A program made the position numbers and the translations under genes. DNA of 64,000 bases from Planctomycetota bacterium (GTDB lineage: Bacteria; Planctomycetota; Phycisphaerae; Phycisphaerales; UBA1924). Under the pieces are notes generated by a model. That model made no database searches, was not told the DNA's origin, and worked only from the letters and a program-made list of their open reading frames with translations. Below are positions 38,924 to 44,044 of the stretch, piece after piece. The DNA is taken from NCBI GenBank assembly GCA_039819165.1, contig JBCBSM010000001.1, positions 186,001 through 250,000 of the forward strand, read 5' to 3'. Each line of letters opens with the position of its first letter. Within the stretch, counting starts at the first letter, position 1.

Positions 38924-39170
38924 CGTCGAGCGTCCTTTCTGCGGCGGCGGGCGTGCGGGCGGCTGCGGACCGTAGCGCGACGGACCGGCTGCCCGCCCGA
39001 TTGCGATATTCTGGAGTTGTACGCGGTTGACCGGGGGAGGTTGGCAACTATCCTTCCCTCCGCGCCGGTGGCGGGGCTTCGGCCCCTGGCGTGATGGGCA
39101 GCGTGATGGACGCCCCGGGGTCGTATCCCCCGGGTCTCCGGCACAGGTCTGGCAGGAGGTTGGCCGGCTC
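38924..39170. other. Divergent leader between a secreted protein gene and rpsJ
   Basis: These 247 bases must hold the S10 operon promoter and leader. A TATATT-like patch (GATATTCT near 39003) is the best -10 candidate. The downstream part is very GC-rich with several self-complementary stretches around GGGGCTTCGGCCCC (39074-39087, a perfect stem with TTCG-type loop) and CCCCGGGG. A structured leader for autoregulation is possible. I see no small gene. Confidence 0.45.
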
Positions 39171-42446: not shown

Positions 42447-42734
42447 ATGAGTCGCAGCAGCTGGAAGGGCCCGTACGTCGACGAGAAGCTCTTCAAGAAG
42501 ATCATGAAGCAGGAAGAGGCGGGCGAGCGCGAGCCCATCAAGACCTGGGCCCGTCGCTGCACCATCGTTCCCGAGTTCGTGGGCCACACCTTCCAGGTGC
42601 ACAACGGCCGCGTCTTCAACGAGGTGTTCGTCACCGAGGACATGGTGGGCCACAAGCTCGGCGAGTTCTCGATCACCCGCACCTTCCGCGGGCACACGAA
42701 CAAGAAGGAAGGCATCAAGTCGGGCAAGAGGTAG
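42447..42734 (+). CDS. rpsS: 30S ribosomal protein S19
   Basis: A 95-residue protein of the 30S head that contacts S13 and the A-site tRNA region. It has [58 protein letters not shown] and [16 protein letters not shown]. Length and order match the family. Confidence 0.96.
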
Positions 42735-42791
42735 CCCGCGGCGACGCAGCACACCGTGCGACGAGCCCCGATCCGCGATCAGGAGTGACCC

Positions 42792-43337
42792 GTGAGACTT
42801 CGGCACGACAGACTGAAAGCCCTGGCCGATGAGGCCGGCGCGACCGTCGAGACCCTCGCCGAGGCCGTCCGTCCGCTCGGACTGGCGGGCGACAAGGCCG
42901 ACTCGGCCGTCCGCAACTGGCTGGCGGGCCGGCCCAAGCCCACGTGCAAGGCCGCCCACATCCGGGCGCTGGCTCGCGCGGTCAACGCCGAGCCCCGCGA
43001 CATCGCCCGCTTCGTCAGCAAGGTCCGCGGGCACCGCGGCAGCACCCAGAAGGCGCGGCTCGTGGCCGACCTGATCCGCGGCAAGACCGTGGACGAGGCG
43101 CTCAACCTGCTGCACTTCAGCCAGAAGCGGGCGTCGGAGAATCTGTCCAAGGCGCTCAACGCCGCCATCGCCGACGCCGAGCAGGCCGACGCCGACGTGA
43201 CCGAGCTGTTCGTCTCCGAGAGCCGGGTCGACGAGGGCGCCCAGATCAAGCGGTTCCGTCCGAAGGACCGCGGCCGGGCGCACCCCATCATCAAGCAGAC
43301 CAGCCACATCACCGTGGGCGTCGAGGAGCGTGCCTAA
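42792..43337 (+). CDS. rplV: 50S ribosomal protein L22 with N-terminal XRE-like helix-turn-helix domain
   Basis: A 181-residue protein, about 70 longer than normal. From about residue 70 it is ordinary L22 (TQKARLVADLIRGKTVDEAL, QIKRFRPKDRGRAHPIIKQT, SHITVGVEERA), which lines the exit tunnel. Residues 1-70 (LKALADEAGATVETLAEAVR, then SAVRNWLAGRPKPTCKAAHI and RALARAVNAEPRDIARF) resemble the small DNA-binding XRE/lambda-repressor fold. The extension is built in: GTG at 42792 has AGGAG 7 bases upstream, and no ATG, GTG or TTG codon lies in frame before the L22 core. Its role is unknown. Confidence 0.92.
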   Translation: MRLRHDRLKALADEAGATVETLAEAVRPLGLAGDKADSAVRNWLAGRPKPTCKAAHIRALARAVNAEPRDIARFVSKVRGHRGSTQKARLVADLIRGKTVDEALNLLHFSQKRASENLSKALNAAIADAEQADADVTELFVSESRVDEGAQIKRFRPKDRGRAHPIIKQTSHITVGVEERA

Positions 43338-44044
43338 TGGGCCAGAAGATCCACCCATTCGGATTCCGCCTGGGCGTGACCGAGGCCCACCGCAGCCGCT
43401 GGTACGCCCCCAAGGCGATCTACGGCGAGCTTCTGGTCGAGGACCAGAAGATCCGTGAGTACCTCGACAAGCGGCTGAACCGCAACCCGGGCCGGCCGCA
43501 CGCCGCGGTGGCCGCCGTGGAGATCGAGCGGACCCGCGAGGAGCTGGTCGTGCTGGTGCGCACGGCCCGTCCGGGCGTGGTGATCGGGCCGAAGGGCGCC
43601 GAGGTCGAGCGGATGACCGAGGAGCTCCAGCTGATGACGGGCCGCAAGGTCCAGATCAAGATCCTGGAGATCAAGAACCCCGACCTGAGCGCCCAGCTGG
43701 TGGCGGCCAACATCGCCGAGCAGCTCAGCCGCCGCTCCAGCTTCCGCCGCGTCGTGAAGATGCGGGCCGAGGGCGTGATGCAGAACGGCGCCAAGGGCGT
43801 GAAGATCCAGATCTCGGGACGCCTGGGCGGGGCCGAGATGAGCCGCCGCCTCGACGTGCGTCTGGGCTCGCTGCCGCTGTCGACGCTGCAGGCCAACGTG
43901 GACTACGGCTTCGAGGAGGCCCGCACCGCCGCGGGCCGCATCGGCGTCAAGGTGTGGATCTACAAGGGCGAGTACCAGCAGCAGAACGAAGAAGAGACCT
44001 CGCGTGCCGCGGGCGCCCGCGTCCGCAGCCGGGGCCGCAGGTAG
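43337..44044 (+). CDS. rpsC: 30S ribosomal protein S3
   Basis: A 235-residue protein at the mRNA entry site with helicase-like action. It has MGQKIHPFGFRLGVTEAHRS, the KH domain TARPGVVIGPKGAEVERM, GVKIQISGRLGGAEMSR and ADYGFEEARTAAGRIGVK-type C-terminal region (here VDYGFEEARTAAGRIGVKVW). An Arg/Gln-rich tail ends it. The ATG overlaps the rplV stop (TAATG). Confidence 0.96.
   Translation: MGQKIHPFGFRLGVTEAHRSRWYAPKAIYGELLVEDQKIREYLDKRLNRNPGRPHAAVAAVEIERTREELVVLVRTARPGVVIGPKGAEVERMTEELQLMTGRKVQIKILEIKNPDLSAQLVAANIAEQLSRRSSFRRVVKMRAEGVMQNGAKGVKIQISGRLGGAEMSRRLDVRLGSLPLSTLQANVDYGFEEARTAAGRIGVKVWIYKGEYQQQNEEETSRAAGARVRSRGRR

Follow-up and report, generated by a model that had tools for sequence, protein, structure and literature searches.

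A predicted Cro/C1 helix-turn-helix domain fused to the N-terminus of ribosomal protein uL22 in eight families of Phycisphaerae

Results

The L22 gene encodes a complete uL22 preceded by 71 residues

The + strand of the window, the whole stretch of 64,000 nucleotides analysed here, carries a ribosomal protein operon of the S10 type, in which the L22 open reading frame sits between the genes for S19 and S3. The features of this part of the operon are as follows.

42447–42734, + strand: S19 gene, the upstream neighbour of L22 in the S10 operon (open reading frame and sequence)
42781–42785, + strand: AGGAG, probable ribosome-binding site of L22 (read from the sequence)
42792–43004, + strand: predicted N-terminal XRE (Cro/C1)-fold domain of L22, residues 1–71, with a GTG start (models, PDB matches, conservation and dN/dS)
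42888–42923, + strand: helix 3, residues 33–44, the putative XRE recognition helix, with invariant N42-W43 (predicted secondary structure and conservation)
42930–42950, + strand: loop after helix 3, residues 47–53, basic in most members of the family (frequencies of K and R, invariant P50)
43005–43337, + strand: uL22 core, residues 72–181, plus the stop codon (PF00237, TIGR01044 and Foldseek)
43337–44044, + strand: S3 gene, the downstream neighbour, sharing one base of its start with the L22 stop (sequence and translation)

The L22 frame runs from the GTG at 42792 to a TAA at 43335–43337 and encodes 181 amino acids. An in-frame TGA lies at 42786–42788, so that 42792 is the first possible start. 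When the frame was scanned for ATG, GTG and TTG codons, the next candidates were residues 91 and 100, both within the L22 core. The first-pass annotation had stated that there is no in-frame start for a normal L22, and we agree: on the reading frame, production of a normal-length protein from any common start codon is ruled out.

The identity of the core was clear from the Pfam Ribosomal_L22 model (PF00237), which matched residues 79–177 with 113.1 bits against a cut-off of 28, and from TIGR01044 (105.8 bits, cut-off 73.65). Foldseek placed the core with L22 from 50S structures. Several bacterial L22 chains pair their residue 4 with residue 75 here, and thus residue 1 with residue 72, so that 71 residues precede a complete L22; the L22 starts of relatives lacking the extension agree with a junction at residue 72. 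Of the 60 solved chains listed, 59 have a match to the window protein that starts no earlier than residue 66, the exception being a chloroplast uL22 (28jw_S) aligned from residue 50. The window protein shares with ordinary bacterial uL22 its core sequence, its single copy and its place between S19 and S3, but ordinary uL22 has only about 110 residues.

The sole L22 match in the source genome, a draft of 35 contigs rated 100% complete and 1.23% contaminated, is the copy in the window. Because the gene is single, ribosomes must use the fused protein (hereafter HTH-L22) unless it is cleaved. With that proviso, the earlier suggestion that every ribosome bears the extra domain holds for this organism.

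The N-terminal domain is predicted to have a Cro/C1 fold

AlphaFold2 modelling of the whole protein from a 51-sequence alignment gave a pLDDT of 93.8 and a pTM of 0.84, and the domain modelled alone gave a pLDDT of 94.7. The modelled helices span residues 5–15, 19–29, 33–44, 54–63 and 68–71, and a strand at residues 72–81 continues from the domain into L22 without a linker. The domain is predicted to adopt a five-helix Cro/C1 (XRE) fold, with the same helix order as SinR, P22 c2, C.AhdI and 434 Cro; the segment between helices 2 and 3 is longer than in classic XRE members. Unlike XRE repressors, the modelled domain is fused to L22, which comes directly after helix 5, and a separate dimerisation part was not seen.

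Foldseek matched the domain to DdrO, C.AhdI, P22 c2, 434 Cro, lambda repressor and SinR. The enzymes PhpD and MPnS were matched as well. E-values began at 0.011, so that none was below 0.001. VIA-align gave Z scores of 9.9 for C.Csp231I, 9.0 for SinR, 8.7 for P22 c2, 8.6 for C.AhdI and 8.0 for 434 Cro, where values near 8 may reflect a common arrangement. Regulators or DNA-binding proteins, some of them operator-bound, made up 35 of the 50 VIA-align rows, and phosphonate enzymes such as HEPD and HppE made up 15. Pfam HTH_31 matched residues 7–73 of the window protein weakly (18.2 bits, cut-off 27), and reached E ≤0.01 in 28 of 52 aligned members, with a best value of 2.8e-8. The repressor-type helix-turn-helix proposed in the first-pass annotation is thus upheld as a prediction, since the models are confident and most of the nearest solved structures are Cro/C1 (XRE) regulators.

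PDB sequences were also searched with a profile of the domain. The best match, 1knz_A ('Nonstructural RNA-binding Protein 34', E 0.0017), was taken as chance; the remaining matches were TniQ and CapH, with E-values of 0.22 and above. MBF1 was not among the matches at E up to 1, which is weak as an absence.

The domain is present throughout eight families

To describe the distribution we use f1 for the family of the window, f4 for a second carrier family of the same order, and f13, f18, f20, f23, f24 and f26 for a second carrier group elsewhere in the class, which we guess to be Sedimentisphaerales. L22 was found in 149 of 151 genomes of the order, and loci were examined from all 46 f1 genomes, all six f4 genomes and 39 of 97 others. 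The distance from the start codon to the K-A-R motif was 86 codons in 42 of 46 f1 members (88 or 89 in the other four), 83 codons in five of six f4 members and 85 in 24 of 27 members of the second group. In four other families of the order it was 15 codons in 36 of 39 loci, and 20, 21 and 32 in the rest. One f4 locus (L080, genome G019) contains the domain with a frameshift inside it, perhaps an assembly error, so that no more than 65 codons separate the opening of its long frame from the motif.

The class was searched with a domain profile (alignment A2), and 43 of 198 genomes gave matches at E ≤0.001. One of these, in genome G016, scored 21 bits and lay outside L22. The other 42 were every L22-bearing genome of the eight families in a draw with 187 L22-bearing genomes in all (f1, 11; f4, 2; f13, 1; f18, 3; f20, 10; f23, 8; f24, 6; f26, 1). 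Over the phylum, 14 of 246 genomes matched; ten of the matches were L22 of members of the class, and the remaining four were weak (21–28 bits), in other proteins at loci without L22.

We then considered 166 loci containing S19, L22 and S3, which were fetched rather than drawn at random. The domain was present in 77 of 77 loci from the eight families (f1, 45/45; f4, 6/6; f13, 1/1; f18, 3/3; f20, 7/7; f23, 8/8; f24, 6/6; f26, 1/1) and absent from all 89 loci of other families, 39 of them from the order, 25 from the class and 25 from the phylum. The comparison across Phycisphaerae proposed in the first-pass annotation gives a domain conserved within these eight families, at a near-constant distance from the core. 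The best 80 of 511 public matches, a list picked by similarity and not a survey, bore titles that chiefly named Phycisphaerales, Phycisphaeraceae, Phycisphaerae or Planctomycetota, with alignment from residue 1 in 79 of the 80. A sequence titled Leptolyngbya sp. PLA1 (L153, QWIH01000025.1) encodes an HTH-L22 that is 55% identical to that of the window; the title is probably wrong.

The domain is constrained and carries a mostly basic loop

Across 24 pairs of sequences (15 within the genus of the window and nine others), dN/dS of the domain was 0.06–0.33. The core gave 0–0.18 in 23 of the pairs, and an outlying value of 0.82 (L072 with L076) was put down to an unaligned one-residue insertion. 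By these ratios the domain is a translated part of the protein under constraint, looser than that on the core.

Net charge of the domain in f1 had a median of +4 and a range of 1 to 10. Helix 3 was on average the most conserved helix in this family (1.59 bits of variability, compared with 1.66–2.25 for the others), and its residues N42 and W43 were invariant. Within the helix, position 37 was among the most variable in the family (3.2 bits), positions 34 and 35 gave 2.8 bits each, and position 38 was intermediate (1.8 bits). Aligned with 434 repressor, whose base-contacting residues are known, the domain would have the corresponding residues at positions 37, 38 and 42. In the loop 47–53, K or R occupied position 47 in 76%, position 51 in 83% and position 53 in 83% of the 46 f1 members, and P50 was invariant. 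The window protein has R-P-K-P-T-C-K here where the family majority has R-D-H-P-R-C-K, that is, T at 51 and P-K in place of D-H at 48–49. The invariant N-W and P are also common in XRE domains generally.

History of the fusion

On a tree of S3, S19 and the L22 core the trait needs three changes. S3 and S19 together rejected a single clade of all carriers (p 6e-7), and the L22 core did not reject it (p 0.18); whole-gene transfer of HTH-L22 and its loss may thus both have occurred. A clade of f1 and f4 was not rejected (p 0.64 and 0.57). In an alignment of 57 rows and few columns, the domain sequences themselves fall into three sets: f1, f4 and all others. When a profile built from f1 and f4 was searched in the second group, with at most 29 candidates scored per genome, it gave one match per genome at E ≤0.001, namely the L22 domain. 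These sequence data would be best fitted by a single origin followed by losses, or by recombination that spread the fusion. Two unrelated fusions are disfavoured, because the junction is near-equal in the two groups and because the f1 and f4 profile finds the domain of the second group.

Sequences upstream of S10 and L22

Two features lie ahead of S10.

39027–39054: TTGAC...TATCCT, putative promoter of S10, ahead of the leader hairpin
39073–39086: GGGGC-UUCG-GCCCC hairpin in the S10 leader, exact in four of six members of the genus

Exact dyads 5 or 6 bases long were sought as operators in six sequences from the genus and in 16 from 13 genera. The GGGGC-4-GCCCC dyad of the leader occurred in four of six sequences of the genus, with at most two in shuffles. 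Across the 13 genera no family-wide exact dyad was found at the S10 promoter: the commonest one, where the S10 frame begins, was present in three of the 16 sequences, with at most two in shuffles. The spacer between S19 and L22 varied from 14 to 122 in length in 45 f1 loci, and no evident common element was seen among the 14 spacers compared.

The start codon of L22 itself was GTG in 41 of 46 f1 loci (L001, L032–L076). The neighbouring genes in f1 start with ATG wherever the start was found (S3 in 41 of 46 loci, S19 in 38 of 46), and elsewhere in the order all 45 L22 genes compared begin with ATG. The conserved weak start may keep L22 output down.

Comparison of 23S rRNA in carriers and non-carriers

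We compared 40 sequences of 23S rRNA, some of them partial, after leaving out L295 (without a 23S match), L291 (not 23S by eye) and L334 (cut short). None of the variable-region lengths separated the carriers of the order (14 f1 and three f4) from its 12 non-carriers, whereas two regions separated four carriers from seven non-carriers of the wider class. Eleven base differences were shared by carriers, no more than other pairings of clades give (1 to 31), and we take the comparison as a null result for 23S rRNA as the binding partner.

Two features of the rRNA were seen in passing. The segment equivalent to E. coli 1396–1568 (172 nt) is 89–124 nt long in the Phycisphaerales compared (loci L293, L294, L301–L320 and L328–L335), with or without the L22 domain. 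The exact sarcin-ricin strings AGTACGAGAGGACC and AGTACGAGAGGAAC were present in only 10 of 196 and one of 49 genomes, and some of these occurrences lie outside 23S, despite a 23S probe matching 41 of 43 genomes; the sequence of the sarcin-ricin loop may differ in these bacteria.

Discussion

The existence of a domain ahead of L22, and its predicted fold, are firm. Lineage-specific extensions of ribosomal proteins are known. A fusion of a Cro/C1 domain to L22 was not described in the titles and abstracts among the matches listed from the open-access literature, and the main text of a genomic study of the class does not mention 'ribosomal protein' (PMC11266412).

Two known architectures invite comparison. 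The NF008917 (PRK12279) family, an 'L22/unknown domain fusion', resembles HTH-L22 by name in joining L22 to an extra domain. As a member of that family the window protein was rejected: it scores 52.5 bits against a cut-off of 526, over residues 84–175, which are L22 only, and its extra domain is N-terminal and XRE-like. EDF1/Mbf1 and archaeal MBF1 are alike in bringing a Cro/C1 domain to ribosomes (PMC7486125); the EDF1/Mbf1 domain sits between h16 and h33 of 18S rRNA on the 40S subunit. The same paper describes an MBF1 or zinc-ribbon part followed by a Cro/C1 domain at the C-terminus and states that MBF1 is not found in bacteria. HTH-L22 has a different order, with the Cro/C1 domain N-terminal and L22 following. 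EDF1/Mbf1 is moreover a separate factor of the small subunit, whereas in HTH-L22 the domain is fused to a protein of the large subunit.

uL22 is a universal ribosomal protein that lines the exit tunnel. PMC13338714 lists it as a protein of the tunnel and vestibule. The domain is a lineage-specific extension of some 71 residues, fused without a linker ahead of this protein. If not cleaved, it would ride on the large subunit and, from the topology of L22, face the solvent close to the rim of the exit tunnel. The basic loop between helices 3 and 4 would grip a nucleic-acid backbone, most simply that of 23S rRNA, and this grip would either fix L22 or make a platform beside the tunnel exit, comparable to the way the EDF1/Mbf1 domain is lodged between two helices of 18S rRNA. 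We regard such a docking module near the tunnel exit as the most likely role of the domain, tentatively and at somewhat less than even confidence, and we rate it above a role in gene regulation. The predicted fold, fixed architecture, purifying selection, positive charge, mostly basic loop, location of uL22 and precedent of EDF1/Mbf1 were counted in its favour. That the loop is basic while positions 34, 35 and 37 vary was read as gripping of a backbone, a pattern also compatible with reading of DNA. Besides the 23S comparison, the following count against docking: the conservation of helix 3 with invariant N42, which would fit DNA reading too; the loop of the window protein, without R51 and with P-K at 48–49; and the commonness of N-W and P in XRE domains. 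As no matching signal was found in 23S rRNA, the mechanism of docking is one that we infer.

The other explanations differ in what the domain would bind and when. It could mainly dock a protein found just in these bacteria, one that acts in targeting, folding or modification, rather than nucleic acid. The position near the tunnel rim expected from topology would suit this role, the fold is shared with HEPD and HppE, so that nucleic-acid binding is not obligatory, and a 23S signature was not found in the 40 sequences. The conserved loop of f1 is basic, however, and we consider docking of a protein factor rather unlikely. Alternatively the domain, on assembled ribosomes, could bind DNA loosely and keep ribosomes near transcription, at the nucleoid or RNA polymerase. 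A repressor fold, variable positions in helix 3 and a mostly basic loop fit weak non-specific binding of this kind, but they fit rRNA equally, and we would give loose tethering to DNA only a small chance. Finally, the domain might be removed after synthesis, leaving normal L22 in mature ribosomes. The coincidence of the junction with the normal L22 start favours removal. Against it, the single strand of residues 72–81 joins both parts in the model, and conserving a folded domain would need another reason; cleavage seems very improbable.

The first-pass annotation had named autoregulation of the S10 locus as an example of a link between ribosome assembly and transcription; in this reading, free L22 would bind DNA or the S10 leader RNA through the domain and lower its synthesis. 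Ribosomal proteins often control their own operons, the fold is that of repressors with operator-bound relatives in the PDB, the most conserved helix is helix 3 with its invariant N42, the f1 L22 gene mostly keeps a GTG start beside ATG-starting neighbours, and the leader hairpin is kept in the genus above the level of shuffles. The upstream sequences did not bear the proposal out, as no exact dyad was widely shared across f1 genera and the S19–L22 spacers had neither a constant length nor an evident common element. Positions 34, 35 and 37 of helix 3 vary, and classical XRE operators need dimers, for which the model offers no dimerisation part. We therefore judge autoregulation distinctly unlikely. 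In the fuller form of the idea, HTH-L22 outside the ribosome would bind DNA or leader RNA and link ribosome assembly to gene expression, with the domain hidden or redirected once the protein is assembled; we give this a slim chance. If a working repressor were involved, the mostly kept GTG start of f1 would be part of the same control.

Judging from the genes, every ribosome of the carrier bacteria probably displays the domain. A folded regulator-type domain on uL22 in whole bacterial families alters the ribosome surface there. Where EDF1/Mbf1 brings a Cro/C1 domain to the ribosome, HTH-L22 would be the bacterial equivalent, with the domain attached covalently and to the opposite subunit. As the domain is present and absent within one class, matched carriers and non-carriers are available, and its role is directly testable.
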